Positions 544-18,363 of a DNA stretch of 32,417 bases are shown in pieces. Within the stretch, counting starts at the first letter, position 1. Every line of letters begins with the position of its first letter. The notes below the pieces were generated by a model. It was not told the DNA's origin and did no database searches. It saw nothing but the letters and a program-made list of their open reading frames with translations. The position numbers and the translations under genes are program-made. This stretch comes from Candidatus Methanoflorens stordalenmirensis (GTDB taxonomy: Archaea; Halobacteriota; Bog-38; Methanoflorentales; Methanoflorentaceae), in assembly GCA_003139855.1 (NCBI GenBank), contig PLGY01000054.1, positions 6,219-38,635 of the forward strand. Reading direction: 5' to 3'.

Positions 544-1101
544 CTATGCTCGCGCTGATTCGAGAGCCCATGCGATGAATCGCCGTGCTGGAAACTCGTG
601 AATCGTCGACAGTATGAAGCGCCCTTTATCTGACAACGTCACGGTCAAAACCGCACCGTCTTCTGTCTCAAGAATCACATCGTGTTCTATCGCGCCGGTC
701 AGGTACCCATCTGTGTGGGCCTCAAGGACATCAACGATCTGTGTTGCCGCATGTTCCCTCTTCATAGCCATTTTCACGAGCTCATCCCGCGGTAACAGCC
801 TGAACCGGCATGGAAGACCAAGCCACCCGAAGTCATAATCGTCAACGTACGGGCTGAACGCGACCAGTGATCCCCCTTTTCGCACGAACTCGCGAAGCGG
901 CGTTCCAAGGCTTTTCACTGATTTTGCAACGGTGCTGTAAGCCGGATTCCCAAAACCCACAGGGAGGATTGCCACCTCGAACTTAGGCGAGTACGCGCTG
1001 CCGATCTGCAATGGAGAGACGCGCTCGCAAGCGAAACCGTACTCCACAAACAGCTTCTCAAAAAGAAGCGGCCGATCCCAAATGAGCGCAATTTCAGTCA
1101 T
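544..1101 (-). CDS. Conserved hypothetical protein, possibly glutamine-amidotransferase-like fold
   Basis: 185 aa uninterrupted ORF. Rossmann-like pattern (MTEIALIWDRPLLFEKLF...FEVAILPVGF...LREFVRKGGSLVAFSP). No signature motif recognised with certainty. Confidence 0.6.
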   Translation of the reverse strand: MTEIALIWDRPLLFEKLFVEYGFACERVSPLQIGSAYSPKFEVAILPVGFGNPAYSTVAKSVKSLGTPLREFVRKGGSLVAFSPYVDDYDFGWLGLPCRFRLLPRDELVKMAMKREHAATQIVDVLEAHTDGYLTGAIEHDVILETEDGAVLTVTLSDKGRFILSTIHEFPARRFIAWALESARA

Positions 1102-1331: not shown

Positions 1332-4300
1332 TCACATCGGTGATTGCGCGTGCTTCCAGCTCTCGACCAATTCAGCTAGTTCTTCTGGGTCAGTGATTTC
1401 CTCGATCCAAATCTCATTGAACCTAGTGCGCAGCGCGGGAGAGAGCACGTTTCGCGACGGGTGAATTTTAGGAGGATTGATGGAAAAAAACAACCTGAAA
1501 TTGGGATGTAGTTCAAAGAGGGTTCCCTGTTCATCGGCAACGTAGCCGAAGTCTAATAACGTGTTGAGATACTCAGAGAGAGGATTGAGGTTTGCCTCGT
1601 CAATCAAAAGCCACGCGCCCTTCTTGATAGCCTTAAACAGCAGTCCTCGCTTGTAGTGCCATTTGCCGCTGCGGCTTTGCGTATAGCCACCCAAGAGTTC
1701 CTCAAGACCTGAATCTGATGATAGGTTAACGTAGTAAAGGTCCGTTTTCTTCTCCCGTGCAAGGTAGCGTATCAACGTCGTTTTGCCTGAAGCAGGGTAG
1801 CCAACTAAAAGAATCGGCTCATTGAAAAAGAGCGCTTTGACAACGCTCGCGAGTGTATATCTCTGCGTTTTAGTCGGGACAATGTTAGCCTCTTGACCAG
1901 GAATAAGGTGGCGACCGCGAGTAACCGACAAGTCCGTTAAGAACTGCTCCAACTGCCCAGCACTGATAGCAAGAACGTCCTCAATGGTCGTGCTCTCAGT
2001 TTTAATGCCAAAGAGCGTGTCGACAAGCTTTATAAGAGCTTCCCGTTCGTCGCCGTTTCGGACGCGTGCCACGTAAATATCTGACAGCTCTCTAGCGAGG
2101 AGCTCCAAAAGCGCTGGTTCGGGTGCATTCGCCTTTATAGCGGGCGTTAATCGCCTCCCGAGCCGTATCAAGTCGCGCAAGCTGAATATGTACGCCTCCT
2201 TTTCCTCCTTGCCGATGACTTTCGAGTCCGCTTGTTCCTGCAGGGTAATGTGGAAAAACGCCACCGAGTACGCTAAATGAGCGGGAATGTCGAACAGCCC
2301 GCTCAAAATCTCAATTAGGTCTTCTTCGCTCAGCTCGGGTTGATAGTGCACTTTGAATCTCGACACAAACACCTGCGAAAGCCGTTCTCTTTGCGCGTAA
2401 CTCACTGGGTTCGCCGTGGCAAACAGCCGGAATTCGTTTGACGGCTCGACAACACGTTGATCGCCATTTTCTGAATAAACAAACTTGCCGGTGATCAGGT
2501 AATCATTCAGTATCTCAAGGACTTCAGAGGTCGCGAGGTTGAGCTCTTCGAGAACGAGGCACATGCCGCGCTTGGCTGCCTTGAGTATGATCCCATCCTG
2601 CCAGGCAAAGATGCCTCGTTTGTTTGGCTTTATCCCGCCTATGAGTTCTGACTTGGAAATGTACGGGTTGAGCGTATACGAGATGTGTTGGTTGCCCAGC
2701 GCCTCAGTTAGCCACTTGACCAAGAAGCTCTTCCCCGTCGACGTCGGCCCCATCAGCAGGAGTGGATGGTGTAGAAGATACGCTGAGGCGATAGCGTAGA
2801 GCATCTCGTACGAGGATTTAGTTACGATGCACGGCTGTGTATTGGTTCGCAGTCTCTTTTTCTTCAGGGTGAGACGACCTACCTGGAGGGCGTCTTTTCC
2901 CAATAGAACAAAAGGCGAATAAGCACCAGAAAGGGGGGCAGACAACGGCTCATTCAGCTCTTTGTCCAGCTCTCGGAGGGTCTCCGCAAACCCAGCTCCC
3001 TCCTGACCAGATAACACTGCGCGCAACACGCTTGCGAAGAGGTCTTGCGCGGCAGCACGAACTTCGGCCGCCTCGTCGTCTAGCGCGCGCTCCAACTCGT
3101 GCAGCGATGCAGCCTCTTCATCACGGACGTGCTGCGGGTAGACTCGTTGGAGGGCTTCTATCGTGGCCCGGCGCACCTCCGGGTCGTGATCAGTGAGCAG
3201 CTGTTCGAGAGGCGCCAGGTTGACGGCGTTCCCGCGTTCGATGAGTGATGCATAAATCCTGCCCAGAGCTTCGGCCGCTGCCACACGAACTCCTGCGTGT
3301 TTGCTCTGTGCGGATTTCTCTAATTTTGTAACCTCGATGGCCGTGTCCCTTTGAAGCAGCGCGGGATAAATCGCGCCAAGCGCTGTCACGGTAGCCCGAC
3401 GCACCTCCGGGTCGTGATCAGTGAGCAGCCGCTCGAGAGGCGCCACGTTGACGGCGTTCCCGTGTTCGATGAGGGCCAGGTACACACGGCTGAGCGCGTG
3501 GACGGCAGTCCGGCGCATCTGGTCATCTGATTGTAACAGAAGGCGCTCGAGAAGCGCGCTGTCAACCGCGTTCCCGTGTTCGATGAGGGCGGGGTAGACG
3601 GTGCCGAGTGCATTCGCGGCTGTTTTTCGTACAACCCAAGATCGATCGCTGAGAGCCGCTTCTAGCGCCTTGAGGTCGACATCCGTGTCACGTTGGATGA
3701 GGGCGGGGTAGACGGTGCCGAGCGCTTCGGCGGTCGCTTGCCGTACGGCCCAATAGTCATCAGAAAGCCCGGTCTTCAAGCGTGACACGTCGACTGCTAC
3801 GCCCACCTCAATAAGCGCCGGGTAAATGATGCCAAGGGCCTCTATCGTCGTTTGCCGTATATAATCGATCAGTCCGTCCAGGCCCCGTTCAATTTGAGCT
3901 ACGCTTATCTGCCTGTCGTGCTTTATAAAAGCCGGATAAACAGCGCTCAAAACCTGCGCTGCGGTCTTGCGCACTCCGAGGAACTCGCTGTCAAGCGCGT
4001 GCTCGAGCTTTGACAACGAGGGCACTACTCCTCGTTCGAGCAGCGAAACATAAACGCGACCGAGCGCATCGATGAGCGCCATTTGGAATTTCTCGTCACG
4101 ATCTCCAAGATCGGCCTCCAGCGCGTCGATGTCAACGCTCTCGCCTCGTTTCACGAATTCTGAATACGCGATGCCTAACGCCCGTACAGTGGCTTGACGC
4201 ACCTCGGTGTCGTGATCAGTGAGCAGACGCTCTAAAAAGACTATTTCAACCGCGTTCCCGTGTTCGATGAGGGCGGGGTAGACGGTGCCGAGTGCATTCG

Positions 4301-5132
4301 CGGCTGTTTTTCGTACAACCCAAGATCGATCGCTGAGAGCCGCTTCTAGCGCCTTGAGGTCGACATCCGTGTCACGTTGGATGAGGGCGGGGTAGACGGT
4401 GCCGAGCGCTTCGGCGGTCGCTTGCCGTACGGCCCACGATTCATCGCGAAGCAGCAGCTCGAGAAGACTTGTGTCGACCACTTTTCCCCCTCCGATGCGT
4501 TCGCTATACAAAGAGGCCAGAACTGCGACGGCTGCTTGGCGTGCAGTCCACGCTGTATCCGTTAACTCGTCTTCTAATTCCTCGATGATAAGATCGCGCA
4601 AAAAATCGGCGACAAGAACGTCATATGCGATCTTGCGTCCCACGATCTGGGTGCGTTTGTCTGGCGGACTCACTAGTGCGCTAAAGACGCGTAGGAACGG
4701 CTTGATGCGGGGACTCGCAGTAAAGGTGATGAGAAGCTCAACAAAAGAGCTCACGCCTTCTGAAAGAGAGGTGACGAGCGCAGGCAGTTGAGGAGATACC
4801 GAAGTGAAATCGAGCGGTTCAAAATCTTTTAGGACTGCTTTGATGTTTTGTTGCTCTTCGACTATTGAACGGATGATCGGTTCATTCTCTGGCTGTATCC
4901 GGGTAAAACCGTAGTGACACGCTTCAACAAACGCGTCTTTCTCGCTTAAGCCAGCCTCCAAGAACAGCGTCACTGCTTCAGTTGCCCGTTTCAAATCCCG
5001 AATTGTGAATAAGTCGGGAAAGTCGTGTTTAAGTTTGAGGTAAACGCCGGCGATTAGCGCTCCGAGCGCAGCCGTGAACCTATCGTCAGTGGCTTCAGAA
5101 GGCCCGTCGCTTCGAGTGTCGCGTCTTGACAA
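1332..5132 (-). CDS. HEAT-repeat array fused to two tandem midasin/MoxR-like AAA+ ATPase domains
   Basis: 1266 aa. About 14 repeats of ~38 aa (e.g. WAVRQATAEALGTVYPALIQRDTDVDLKALEAALSDRS). Walker A1 GPTSTGKS (2727-2750) with Walker B CLVLEELNLA. Walker A2 GYPASGKT (1779-1802) with Walker B WLLIDEANLNPL. FRLFATANP and FRLFFSINP sensor motifs as in AAA_5/midasin domains. Confidence 0.9.
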   Translation of the reverse strand: MSRRDTRSDGPSEATDDRFTAALGALIAGVYLKLKHDFPDLFTIRDLKRATEAVTLFLEAGLSEKDAFVEACHYGFTRIQPENEPIIRSIVEEQQNIKAVLKDFEPLDFTSVSPQLPALVTSLSEGVSSFVELLITFTASPRIKPFLRVFSALVSPPDKRTQIVGRKIAYDVLVADFLRDLIIEELEDELTDTAWTARQAAVAVLASLYSERIGGGKVVDTSLLELLLRDESWAVRQATAEALGTVYPALIQRDTDVDLKALEAALSDRSWVVRKTAANALGTVYPALIEHGNAVEIVFLERLLTDHDTEVRQATVRALGIAYSEFVKRGESVDIDALEADLGDRDEKFQMALIDALGRVYVSLLERGVVPSLSKLEHALDSEFLGVRKTAAQVLSAVYPAFIKHDRQISVAQIERGLDGLIDYIRQTTIEALGIIYPALIEVGVAVDVSRLKTGLSDDYWAVRQATAEALGTVYPALIQRDTDVDLKALEAALSDRSWVVRKTAANALGTVYPALIEHGNAVDSALLERLLLQSDDQMRRTAVHALSRVYLALIEHGNAVNVAPLERLLTDHDPEVRRATVTALGAIYPALLQRDTAIEVTKLEKSAQSKHAGVRVAAAEALGRIYASLIERGNAVNLAPLEQLLTDHDPEVRRATIEALQRVYPQHVRDEEAASLHELERALDDEAAEVRAAAQDLFASVLRAVLSGQEGAGFAETLRELDKELNEPLSAPLSGAYSPFVLLGKDALQVGRLTLKKKRLRTNTQPCIVTKSSYEMLYAIASAYLLHHPLLLMGPTSTGKSFLVKWLTEALGNQHISYTLNPYISKSELIGGIKPNKRGIFAWQDGIILKAAKRGMCLVLEELNLATSEVLEILNDYLITGKFVYSENGDQRVVEPSNEFRLFATANPVSYAQRERLSQVFVSRFKVHYQPELSEEDLIEILSGLFDIPAHLAYSVAFFHITLQEQADSKVIGKEEKEAYIFSLRDLIRLGRRLTPAIKANAPEPALLELLARELSDIYVARVRNGDEREALIKLVDTLFGIKTESTTIEDVLAISAGQLEQFLTDLSVTRGRHLIPGQEANIVPTKTQRYTLASVVKALFFNEPILLVGYPASGKTTLIRYLAREKKTDLYYVNLSSDSGLEELLGGYTQSRSGKWHYKRGLLFKAIKKGAWLLIDEANLNPLSEYLNTLLDFGYVADEQGTLFELHPNFRLFFSINPPKIHPSRNVLSPALRTRFNEIWIEEITDPEELAELVESWKHAQSPM
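3030..4560 (-). repeat. Array of ~114-bp (38 codon) HEAT repeats within the AAA+ gene
   Basis: Repeating VRxATxxALGxVYPALIxRxxxVxLxxLExxLxD unit. Includes the perfect 191-bp direct repeat 3562-3752 / 4246-4436. Confidence 0.9.
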
Positions 5133-5136
5133 GTCA

Positions 5137-7638
5137 TCAGGATGAATGACTCATCACCTCTTGCTGGAGCACTTCGCCCAACGTCAGCGGCAACTCGTCA
5201 ACAGTAGCGACTTGTATCGGACGGCGATATCGCGCGCTTATCGTTTTTGCCTGTTCGCCGATACCGATGCCGATTACGCTTATGGCTTTTGTTTCTGCCG
5301 CGTCTTGCAGTTCCTCGAACGTCATGCCGGTCGTATTGACGTTGCCTTCGCCGTCGGATATGACGATTATGAGGCGATAAACATCTTCTGGCTCTCGATC
5401 GAATAGGTCGATCCCTAGCGCGAGCGCGTCTGCATCTGCCGTCGCCCCGAGCGGAATGAACTGAGAGACGTCCTCAAACACATCCTCACGAGTCCGCTGA
5501 GTCAGCGTCTCCCCAAACGGCTTGTGGATGATTGGCGCGTCCGAGAAGCCGATGATCGCGTAGTCGATTCCCAGATAATCGAACGCTTCCATAAAGAGCA
5601 AAAGTGCGTGCAGTGCAGCAGTTCGCTTTGGTTCCTGCATCGAGCCTGATTCGTCTAAGAGCAACATTATCCGGTGGTCCAAGCGGGTCGGCCGCCTGCG
5701 CTTGAGGAATACGTCGAAATCTTTCTTGGTCGTGGGCAAGCCTTGTTGCATCTTGCGCGTAACGTCCATCACCCGACGCAAATCCGGTTTTTGCCCAGAC
5801 GGATAGTAGCCTTCGTACTTTGGCTTACGATTCTTTGCAAGCACGTTTTCAAGCGTTCCGACGAGTATATGCAGCAATCCCGAAACAGCAGCGTACGCTC
5901 CTTGGTATTCGTTCATACGGCGGCCGCGTTCGAATTCGAGGTGCCGGCGCTGAGCGACAAGGTCTCGGCGGGTGAGTTCGGAGTGCGGCTTTTCTGCTGA
6001 AATTCGCACGTGTTCAAGGCTATCCCTGTTCTCCGCAATTTTTTGTTCAAGGGCATCAGCGTCGACCGATTCGGGCGCAGTTCGCTTAGCAGACAGCCGA
6101 TCGGCGAGTTCCTTGGCTTGCTCCTCGAGGATCTCCCCCTCTTGCTCCAAAAGTTGTGGGTTAATTTCAGAGGGGTTTTCACCTTCGCCGAGAGGGTGCT
6201 GCCCGCGCTCTGCGCCTAGCGTAAGGTTGTCAGCGGCTTGCTTGAGCAGCTGTTCGTACGGCTCTAGAATATGGTCCCGTATCTGTTCGGCCGCTTCCCG
6301 TGCGTACCGAAGCTTGTCGTACTCTGTCGCGCGGCTAGGGGGGTAGTGGTTGAAGATTGATGGAAAAAACTGAACTGTACTTTCGAGAGCAGCGCCTACT
6401 TGTGGGCTTATGACGTGCGAAGGAAGCCTACCAAACCGCCAGAAGTAAAGAACGCATAACAGGTACTCGAGATGCGGAAACAGCTGGTATGCCTGAATCG
6501 TTGAATCGGAGTATTTTTGCACCTCCTTCTGCAATTTGTGGCTGTAAGCCGTTGCGCTGAGGTCGTCTGACAACAGATCGTCATAAATGATATCGAGATA
6601 TGGGGTCGTTCCCTTAAAAGTGGATTTCATCCAGTTACTTGCGCGCGGATCTTCAAACGTGTTGAGCAATAAGCGCAACGATTCGCTCGAAAGAAGACGC
6701 TTGAAGACCGGATGTTTCACGTCGACACGCGTTACTTGGTAGTGGCCGATCTCGTGCAATAAGTAACCAATAATTTTGTCGGATGGTGCTGTGACGAGGT
6801 CGACGAGAGGAAAGGTTATGGTGTCACTCTCATAGTCAAAAGCCCACCATTCACCAGGAACGACGCTGATGTCAACATCCTCACCCAGTCCCGTTGAGAT
6901 AATGGTCACGAGCGTGCGCATCTTCTTGAGGAGGATTGCCTGGTCTATTCTACTTCTCGCGGCTAACTCGGCTATCCGTTGACGTTGTTCTTCCGAAAGC
7001 TCAGTGTATGGCTCACGCGAAGGCGTTCCTGATGTGGCGAGCGGGGCTGCTTGCACATCCAAATGCGGGAGCTTCTGAGCCAGATGCGCGAACAATGCGT
7101 CCAACCAGTCTTTGTTAGCGAACATCGCATAGCGCTCGGGCGCGCCCAACACGTCGACTTGGTCTTTGAGAAGCGGCAGTGAGAGTTCATCGAGCAGCTC
7201 GTCACAGTTTCTGTCGTTTCCGTTTCGCGCGAGGCGGTCAAACACATACGCAAACACTCCGAGTCGAAAGCCAACGGGCACGCCTTCGCGCAGCAATGCG
7301 TAGCTCAGATAAACGACACGGTCGTCTGCGCTCGCTAACGCCGTGCCTTTCGCATCAACGTTGAGCGAGCGCGAACTGGCCGAAATGACTACCCGCGCTG
7401 GGAGCGTTCGTGCTGACTGCTTGTGACTCAAGGAAACCCACGTCGCAAAATCACGTTCAAACTGACCGAGCATCTGCGTCACTCGTGCCTGAATAGCTGG
7501 TGGCAAGTTAGCAATCCGGTTCTGATCGAAGACGAAGCGCACGTGCGAATCAGCGATGCGTAGCGAGACAGTTAGCTCTGGAAGGCTTTTCTCTTCCTCT
7601 GTCGGCCTAGAAAATGCCGGATAATGAACCAGGGACAC
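5137..7638 (-). CDS. VWA (MIDAS) domain protein with upstream HExxH zincin-like motif; partner of the AAA+ gene
   Basis: 833 aa, GTG start. MIDAS motif IMLLLDESGSMQEP (DESGS at 5641-5655). HEIGH motif (6742-6756) in KIIGYLLHEIGHYQVTRVD. Stop lies 4 bp from the start of the AAA+ ORF on the same strand. Confidence 0.88.
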   Translation of the reverse strand: MSLVHYPAFSRPTEEEKSLPELTVSLRIADSHVRFVFDQNRIANLPPAIQARVTQMLGQFERDFATWVSLSHKQSARTLPARVVISASSRSLNVDAKGTALASADDRVVYLSYALLREGVPVGFRLGVFAYVFDRLARNGNDRNCDELLDELSLPLLKDQVDVLGAPERYAMFANKDWLDALFAHLAQKLPHLDVQAAPLATSGTPSREPYTELSEEQRQRIAELAARSRIDQAILLKKMRTLVTIISTGLGEDVDISVVPGEWWAFDYESDTITFPLVDLVTAPSDKIIGYLLHEIGHYQVTRVDVKHPVFKRLLSSESLRLLLNTFEDPRASNWMKSTFKGTTPYLDIIYDDLLSDDLSATAYSHKLQKEVQKYSDSTIQAYQLFPHLEYLLCVLYFWRFGRLPSHVISPQVGAALESTVQFFPSIFNHYPPSRATEYDKLRYAREAAEQIRDHILEPYEQLLKQAADNLTLGAERGQHPLGEGENPSEINPQLLEQEGEILEEQAKELADRLSAKRTAPESVDADALEQKIAENRDSLEHVRISAEKPHSELTRRDLVAQRRHLEFERGRRMNEYQGAYAAVSGLLHILVGTLENVLAKNRKPKYEGYYPSGQKPDLRRVMDVTRKMQQGLPTTKKDFDVFLKRRRPTRLDHRIMLLLDESGSMQEPKRTAALHALLLFMEAFDYLGIDYAIIGFSDAPIIHKPFGETLTQRTREDVFEDVSQFIPLGATADADALALGIDLFDREPEDVYRLIIVISDGEGNVNTTGMTFEELQDAAETKAISVIGIGIGEQAKTISARYRRPIQVATVDELPLTLGEVLQQEVMSHSS

Positions 7639-8007: not shown

Positions 8008-8532
8008 CTAAATCCGCTCACCCGTGATGTCCACTTTGACGCCTGTAACCTTTTCGACAGGCTCTTTTCGGGGCATCGTGACCTCTAAGACCCCGTTGTT
8101 GAATCGCGCTTTAGCTTTGTCTGGAATTACTGGAGCTGGCAAACGCATTGTTCGCTTGTACGCCATGTAGCCCCTCTCTCGACGAGCGTAAGGTTGCTGT
8201 TCACGTGCTATTTCAGCTTTTGATTCGGCACTGATCTCTATAGTGTCTGGCGTGAGGTTGAGGTCTATGTCCTCTTTCTTAACCCCTGGCAGATCAGCGA
8301 CCAAGTGAATTTCTGTTCCGACGTCGATAATATCTACGTCAGGGGCCCTAACCGGCCCTCGAGGCCTTGGTATGATTTCAGGGACGTACGCTTTGTACAA
8401 GTGCTCAGCACGCGAGCGCTGCGGCTCCGGAACAAGCATCTTGTAGAGGTCTTCGGCACTCGCAAACATAGCGTCGAATGCGCGTCTCACATCAGCAAGG
8501 GTACCCAAGATCCAATCTTCTCTCGTCGTCAT
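8008..8532 (-). CDS. Hsp20/alpha-crystallin family small heat-shock protein
   Basis: Alpha-crystallin domain: DVDIIDVGTEIHLVADLPGVKKEDIDLNLTPDTIEISAE...GVLEVTMPRKEP. The tracked ORF extends to 8562; internal ATG (MTTREDW) at 8532 is an alternative start. Confidence 0.92.
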   Translation of the reverse strand: MTTREDWILGTLADVRRAFDAMFASAEDLYKMLVPEPQRSRAEHLYKAYVPEIIPRPRGPVRAPDVDIIDVGTEIHLVADLPGVKKEDIDLNLTPDTIEISAESKAEIAREQQPYARRERGYMAYKRTMRLPAPVIPDKAKARFNNGVLEVTMPRKEPVEKVTGVKVDITGERI

Positions 8533-8624
8533 TTTTCTGCCTTTCATTCGTTTCTCGACCATATGATCACCTGTTAGTCGTTCGGCTGAAAATAATCACT
8601 CTCCATAGAATTCTGCTTTGTTCC

Positions 8625-17232: not shown

Positions 17233-18363
17233 TCACGTTATGGTGATCGAGTGTTTGCTATGGGAGGATTTACTGGCGATGTTCTTGAGCGCGTGTGCAG
17301 CGGCTTTTTGCACGCGCTGATTATCATCCTTGAGCGCCTCGTTAAGGGGGTTCAACGCCCGAGAGTCTCCGAGTTGACCGAGCGCCCAAGCCGCAACTTC
17401 GCGCACATCGCTGTATGGATCTTCCAGGGCCCTTATGAGAGGCCCTACGGCTTGTGTGTTGCCGAGTTGACCGAGCGCCCAAGCCGCAACTTCGCGCACG
17501 TTTTTATATCTATCAGACAGCACTTCGACGAGCGGCTCAACGGCGCGGGGGTTGCCGAGCTGGCCAAGGGCTTCGGCGGCGACCCGTCGCACGTCACTGT
17601 TTTCGGCGTATAGCGTGCGGACGAGCGGCTCAACGGCGCGGGGGTTGCCGAGCTGGCCAAGGGCTTCGGCGGCGACCCGTCGCACGTCCGTCGCTCCCTC
17701 GCTCAGCACTTCTATGAACGGCTCTAATGAGCGTGGATCGTTAAACTGCTTAAGCGCGCACGCGGCGGCGAAGCTGACGTGCCAGTCCTGATCCTTGAGG
17801 GCAGCTATGAGCGGCAAAACGGCGCGGGGGTTGCCGAGCTGGCCAAGGGCTTCGGCGGCGGCTCGACGTGCCTGGCTGTCGGTTACTTGGAGCTCATGGA
17901 TCAGAGGGTCTACGGATGGTTCGTCGAGCTTTGCCAACGCCTCAACAGAGGCGGCCCGAACACGCCGGTCGTCATCTGCTAACGTCTCTGTGAGGGGTAG
18001 CACGGCGCGGGGGTTGCCGAGCTGGCCAAGGGCTTCGACGGCGGCGCGGCGCACCCCGCTATCATTCACGTGCATCGCGTTGACCAGGGGGTCGAACGCT
18101 TCGTGCCTTTTAAGCGCGGCTACAGCGCTCAAGCGTACACGCTCATTTTCGTCTTGCAACGCCCCAATTAGAGGGTCAACCGCTCTTTGATCGGCTAGAC
18201 TGCCAAGCGCGTCAACGGCTTCCTTGCGCGTATTCTCGTCGTGGTCGAAATCCGTGCCACCGATTTCTACCGTGCGCGCTAAGTTCTCAACGTCGCCGTT
18301 GGCGAGCATTTTTGCAATATCAGGTTTGCTGTCAAAGATTCTCACTGCTGCCTGCACCTTCAA
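17233..18363 (-). CDS. HEAT-repeat (PBS-lyase-like) protein, ~31 aa period
   Basis: 376 aa. Regular repeats such as VRRVAAEALGQLGNPRAVEPLVRTLYAENSD across almost the whole length. Confidence 0.9.
   Translation of the reverse strand: MKVQAAVRIFDSKPDIAKMLANGDVENLARTVEIGGTDFDHDENTRKEAVDALGSLADQRAVDPLIGALQDENERVRLSAVAALKRHEAFDPLVNAMHVNDSGVRRAAVEALGQLGNPRAVLPLTETLADDDRRVRAASVEALAKLDEPSVDPLIHELQVTDSQARRAAAEALGQLGNPRAVLPLIAALKDQDWHVSFAAACALKQFNDPRSLEPFIEVLSEGATDVRRVAAEALGQLGNPRAVEPLVRTLYAENSDVRRVAAEALGQLGNPRAVEPLVEVLSDRYKNVREVAAWALGQLGNTQAVGPLIRALEDPYSDVREVAAWALGQLGDSRALNPLNEALKDDNQRVQKAAAHALKNIASKSSHSKHSITIT
17527..18040 (-). repeat. ~93-bp tandem HEAT repeats with near-identical DNA
   Basis: 69-bp perfect repeat 17527-17595 / 17620-17688. 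The core GGCGCGGGGGTTGCCGAGCTGGCCAAGGGCTTCG recurs near 17820 and 18003. Confidence 0.85.

Follow-up and report, generated by a model that had tools for sequence, protein, structure and literature searches.

Midasin (Rea1/Mdn1) is a giant eukaryotic ribosome-assembly motor whose clients are of the UBL type (Ytm1/Rsa4, NLE family). The papers considered here treat it as eukaryotic, and its prokaryotic MoxR relatives NorQ, CbbQ, and RavA as single-AAA proteins. The AAA ring of Rea1 moves a client-holding MIDAS VWA domain; the MIDAS binds to the ring and takes hold of UBL domains (PMC11603028). In NorQD, a finger beside the VWA domain threads through the AAA pore (PMC13036017, PMC9976466). We compared these systems with a gene pair of Methanoflorens stordalenmirensis (GTDB genus Bog-38), the dominant methanogen of Stordalen mire (PMC10805028).

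The window, i.e., the whole stretch of DNA analyzed here, was 32,417 nucleotides in length and belonged to a 53-kb contig of a 2.06 Mb bin with 85% completeness. The pair consists of two adjacent minus-strand genes recognized by their open reading frames and Pfam matches. The upstream member (5137..7638; 833 aa, GTG start) encodes a HExxH-VWA protein and the downstream member (1332..5132; 1266 aa, TTG start) encodes a HEAT-AAA-AAA protein, orthologues or fragments of which were found in seven genomes of the genus. The ORF coordinates leave the 4-bp gap between the genes that had been claimed in the original prediction; the two genes are presumably co-transcribed. The G+C content was 0.54 in both genes, the same as in the window. 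Upstream of the pair, a gene for the small heat-shock protein HSP20 was encoded (8008..8562, minus strand; Pfam HSP20, 2.5e-16), which is possibly a functional neighbor of the pair rather than a demonstrated component. Downstream, a gene for a 185-aa protein (544..1101, minus strand), for which the Pfam search gave no family match, adjoins the AAA gene in all five contigs L044–L048. Elsewhere in the window, a 376-aa ORF (17233-18363) appeared HEAT-like by eye, and further HEAT-repeat reading frames were present elsewhere in the genome.

The Pfam domain matches of both proteins were far beyond chance; those of the HEAT-AAA-AAA protein were HEAT_2 (1.8e-49), HEAT (2.9e-48), AAA_5 (2e-37, two stretches), and AAA_lid_7 (2.9e-13). 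The HEAT array occupies residues ~186–700 (3033..4577, minus strand) and was recognized by Pfam, by a period of 38, and by DNA repeat families. Units of ~38 aa over this length give ~14 repeats, the number that had been estimated from the sequence alone. Two HEAT segments located 684 bp apart (3538-3768 and 4222-4452) were 93–95% identical at the DNA level within each genome and only ~70–72% identical to those of genome G003. This pattern, which indicates concerted evolution or intragenic gene conversion, was found in four assemblies.

The core of the first AAA module, AAA1 (AAA_5; residues 790–926; 2355..2765, minus strand), contains Walker A (GPTSTGKS), Walker B (LVLEEL), sensor 1 (ATANP), and an arginine finger (SRF). 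Its Walker B carries E-E and not D-E, and the same is true of all orthologues. The core is followed by a lid of the midasin type (AAA_lid_7, PF17867; residues 938–1044; 2001..2321, minus strand), which passed the cut-off and includes a sensor-2-like SLRDL. The core of AAA2 (residues 1100–1250; 1383..1835, minus strand) also has a complete set of motifs: Walker A (GYPASGKT), Walker B (LLIDEAN), sensor 1 (SINP), and an arginine finger (RTRF). However, in all orthologues the chain stops just past this core, leaving AAA2 without a C-terminal lid; this is unusual for a ring member and counts against the ring model discussed below. The structure model of the tandem AAA region was of modest quality (pLDDT 60); at this quality, AAA1 showed two short strands (88–92 and 98–102) at the expected site of the helix-2 insert of MoxR-type ATPases. 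The six motifs named in the original prediction (EELNLA, DEANLN, FATANP, FFSINP, HEIGH, and DESGS) were all found and were invariant across the orthologues of the genus.

The kinship of the AAA modules was assessed by single-domain bit scores. Whole-sequence E-values against PDB (near 1e-100) were dropped as proof of midasin affinity since they are summed over the six midasin domains and are therefore misleading: a control MoxR protein from genome G023 also reached 8e-81. The best single-domain PDB match of both modules was midasin AAA3: AAA1 scored 83.7 bits with Mdn1 AAA3 versus 35.3 bits with CbbQ, and AAA2 scored 84.9 bits versus 32 bits with NorQ. The control MoxR showed the reverse (87.6 bits with CbbQ versus 70.2 bits with Mdn1 AAA3). 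When all candidates were scored on one scale, Rea1 AAA3 gave 87–89 bits with AAA1 and 86–91 bits with AAA2, while the best of the collected prokaryotic AAAs gave 64 and 48.5 bits, respectively. A single collinear stretch (121.5 bits) aligned the two AAAs, together with the intervening region, with Rea1. The proposed Foldseek search with the tandem AAA model agreed, Rea1 taking ranks 1, 2, and 3 with E-values of about 1e-19.

In maximum-likelihood trees, in which Rea1 was represented by five domain segments from two yeasts, both modules grouped with Rea1 AAA3/AAA5 with a support of 92/90 in the first tree and 83/86 in the second. The branch joining the AAAs of the window genus with all Rea1 domains had a support of 92/79 in the first tree versus 76/49 in the second; thus, the kinship of the modules with Rea1 is supported but not settled. 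The modules were placed with the Rea1 domains outside the MoxR/CbbQ/NorQ/CobS clade, with moderate support and no strong exclusion. The name "midasin-like", used in the original prediction, stands insofar as midasin is the nearest solved relative of both the AAA modules and the MIDAS; on the other hand, the six-AAA chain, the linker, and the D/E-rich region are absent. On this partial support, which goes beyond motif resemblance, the AAA modules and the MIDAS may fairly be called midasin-like. There is a credible, though tentative, case for placing the AAA modules in a prokaryotic offshoot of the midasin AAA clade.

The C-terminal domain of the HExxH-VWA protein is a VWA domain (5149..5676, minus strand; Pfam VWA, 6.4e-10) with a complete MIDAS, the residues of which (D662-x-S664-x-S666, T733, and D762) were invariant in the orthologues. 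Together with the segment preceding it, this domain had midasin MIDAS as its best PDB match (E 3.5e-4). The preceding segment itself (residues ~604–650; 5689..5829, minus strand) aligned with the same midasin MIDAS region and, by analogy with NorQD (PMC13036017), is a candidate pore-inserting finger. The zincin-like domain (residues ~215–345; 6604..6996, minus strand) contains the HEIGH motif (residues 295–299; 6742..6756, minus strand). H295, E296, and H299, as well as the downstream E329, were invariant in the genus, which corresponds to the HExxH + Glu pattern of gluzincins; E329 would be the third zinc-ligand-like residue. None of the Pfam peptidase families matched this domain, even at permissive thresholds. 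The structure model of the HExxH-VWA protein was unusable (pLDDT 40). No second PF00092 VWA gene turned up in the host genome (85% complete).

The survey of the phylum covered ~394 genomes; bacteria were sampled via plasmids, phages, viral contigs, and a scan for two peptide patterns. Full-length profile matches to the HExxH-VWA protein were found in this genus only. AAA_lid_7 exceeded the cut-off in each of the seven genomes of this genus, with one weak case elsewhere among the ~394. The co-occurrence and synteny across archaea that the original prediction called for were thus found within the genus, where the pair and its order are kept; elsewhere among the ~394 genomes of the phylum, the pair was not found. 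The bacterial sampling was narrow, with two peptide patterns in a single genome-wide scan, so that the pair may also occur in bacteria.

The gene order HSP20, HExxH-VWA, HEAT-AAA-AAA, 185-aa protein, and a gene on the opposite strand was kept in contigs L045 and L046, and the broken contigs L044, L047, and L048 were consistent with it. The pair of L046 was 61–69% identical to that of the window. The same contig carries a Rad50-like neighbor (L046:738-3479), which was 44% identical to that of the window versus 69–77% for the nearby SOD and HSP20; this gene may have been replaced. Both genes of the pair are under strong purifying selection: dN/dS was 0.07–0.24 for all parts, with ~0.14–0.18 for the HEAT-AAA-AAA gene, among relatives with dS up to ~1.4. 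Named records with orthologues were "fen" isolates and MAGs from the SPRUCE site. A gene for mcrA was found in five of the seven genomes of the genus, indicating that its members are methanogens. Given the matching G+C content and the syntenic orthologues in MAGs from independent peat sites, a recent acquisition of the DNA from outside and a contamination of the assembly were both rejected. An origin from mobile elements was also rejected: plasmids, phages, and viral contigs gave no close match, just single AAAs at 26–35% identity.

AAA modules were found naturally fused to a homologue of the HExxH-VWA protein in two species of one methanogen genus from a different family of the same phylum (genomes G006 and G221). 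Their single chains of 3261 aa (L059:3778-13563, plus strand) and 3312 aa (L084, minus strand), respectively, were 51% identical to each other and comprise six AAA_5 domains each; a WD40-like propeller is located between AAA3 and AAA4 of the G006 chain. The C-terminal module of the giants, made up of a zincin-like, a helical, and a VWA part, matched the HExxH-VWA protein with a blastp E-value of 2e-15; the overall layout of the giants is midasin-like. In both giants, HExxH is changed to HExxE and the downstream ED to GD, and the MIDAS threonine is gone. The fusion suggests that the VWA module is tied to AAA rings. The odd and the even AAAs of the giants formed two clades in the tree, which means that the six-AAA chain was built by triplicating a pair of AAAs; by the same construction, the HEAT-AAA-AAA protein may form a trimer ring. 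The AU test rejected one clade of the giants' AAAs with those of the window (p 0.0056) as well as one clade of the giants' AAAs with Rea1 (p 0.0037).

On balance, the pair probably constitutes an AAA+/MIDAS remodeling machine akin to midasin and the MoxR-VWA systems, with its parts divided between two genes. The split machine of the original prediction is favored by the synteny, the co-occurrence in the genus, and the AAA/HExxH-VWA fusion elsewhere; its membership in midasin itself did not hold. The HEAT-AAA-AAA protein would be the motor. Each chain has two unlike AAA modules, so a closed ring of six modules would take three chains, with the three HEAT arrays as its outer arms, which could replace the linker of Rea1. 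The segment preceding its VWA domain would anchor the HExxH-VWA protein to the ring, and the metal of the MIDAS would grip an acidic group of a client protein. Driven by ATP hydrolysis, the machine could then extract the client from a complex, or insert it into one, by pulling or twisting. The zincin-like domain, the least certain part of the model, would probably lie near the gripped client, being either a metal-dependent peptidase or a recognition or stator domain. A role in ribosome assembly via NLE/UBL clients is unsupported: a profile search of the 85%-complete genome for the NLE/UBL family gave no match above the cut-off. We also consider, as a tentative and rather doubtful proposal, that the pair is a prokaryotic member of the midasin clade with an intact metallopeptidase domain. 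It would then represent either the stage before the single chain, with paired AAA modules and a separate MIDAS, or a midasin-like motor that was acquired and converted into a protease.

The remodeling machine split over two genes has to be weighed against other explanations, among which metal insertion and ATP-driven proteolysis are to be taken seriously. The pair could be a MoxR-type metal-insertion chaperone comparable with NorQ-NorD and CobS-CobT, opening a methanogen metalloenzyme for its metal or cofactor; the HExxH would then bind the metal or the client, and no protease would be involved. The VWA part does weakly resemble CobT_C and VWA_CoxE in the profile search, the AAAs were matched by the phage CobS-like profile phrog_249, NorQD inserts iron by finger-in-pore twisting (PMC13036017), and mcrA in the genus means nickel-enzyme metabolism. 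We nevertheless regard metal insertion as unlikely, given that midasin is nearer to the AAA modules than NorQ, CbbQ, or CobS and that the pair has no obvious metal-cofactor gene next to it. An ATP-driven metalloprotease, in which the MIDAS and the HEAT arms hold clients for delivery by the AAA ring to the HExxH site with an FtsH-like outcome, is less probable still. The invariance of HEIGH and E329 in the genus, both lost from the homologous module of the giants, speaks for cleavage, and the HSP20 gene conserved next door hints at quality control; the failure of the peptidase families to match and the unusable model of the protein speak against it.

A conflict or defense system akin to the MoxR-vWA ternary systems would account for the weak bpMoxR match (7e-6), for the two HEAT units homogenized within each genome, and for the repeat array in general, HEAT-type scaffolds being partners in such systems (PMC7159879). 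However, the pair occupies a single stable locus with the same neighbors in divergent species, is subject to strong purifying selection, and has no variable effector gene beside it; PADLOC matches were weak and confined to the HEAT or ATPase parts, with none for the VWA protein. We therefore consider this explanation very improbable. The assumption of two unrelated genes that happen to lie side by side is hardly credible: the gap is 4 bp, the order is kept wherever the contigs permit a check, the VWA gene is the only one of its kind found in the genome, and the same VWA module is fused to AAAs in the giants.

A midasin-related motor that is small and comes in separable parts would make it possible to test directly how an AAA ring drives a MIDAS without a 5000-residue protein. 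If the zincin-like site is active, the remodeling ring would have a protease arm of its own. The lineage of the host seems to be one of the methanogens relevant to methane release from thawing peat.

Among the known systems, the MoxR-vWA-beta-propeller/VMAP ternary systems (PMC7159879) share with the pair the combination of AAA, VWA, and a repeat scaffold, and the variant with a propeller is reminiscent of the 3261-aa chain of G006. They include a third component and a variable effector, whereas the neighbors of the pair, HSP20 and the 185-aa protein, are constant in the genus. A haloarchaeal plasmid (Halomicrobium, L052:730-2277) encodes a cluster of a Ser/Thr kinase, an AAA ATPase, and a vWA protein, which is its own kind of MoxR-vWA set. 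The MoxR/VWA couples NorQ-NorD, CbbQ-CbbO, CobS-CobT, and RavA-ViaA resemble the pair in having separate adjacent AAA_5 and VWA genes, and by analogy with them, finger-in-pore docking would be expected (PMC9976466, PMC13036017). Chains of the NorQ type contain a single AAA; the HEAT-AAA-AAA protein has two, and these are nearer to midasin. The HEAT fusion and the HExxH domain, both present in the pair, are not described for NorQD.

Midasin shares with the pair AAA_5 modules nearest to Rea1 AAA3/AAA5, the AAA_lid_7 on AAA1, the collinear tandem, and a similar segment before the MIDAS. It differs in having six AAAs in one chain instead of two and in carrying the MIDAS in the same chain, past a linker of ~1700 aa and a D/E-rich region; in the window, the HEAT array takes the place of the linker, the D/E-rich region is lacking, and the MIDAS belongs to the protein of the neighboring gene. 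The HExxH domain is an addition relative to midasin. The giants of G006 and G221 have the homologous zincin-like, helical, and VWA module but combine it in a single chain with AAAs of another clade and have lost the HExxH and the MIDAS threonine. The window pair and the six-AAA giants would thus represent two routes to MIDAS-coupled AAA rings, which bears on the origin of midasin.
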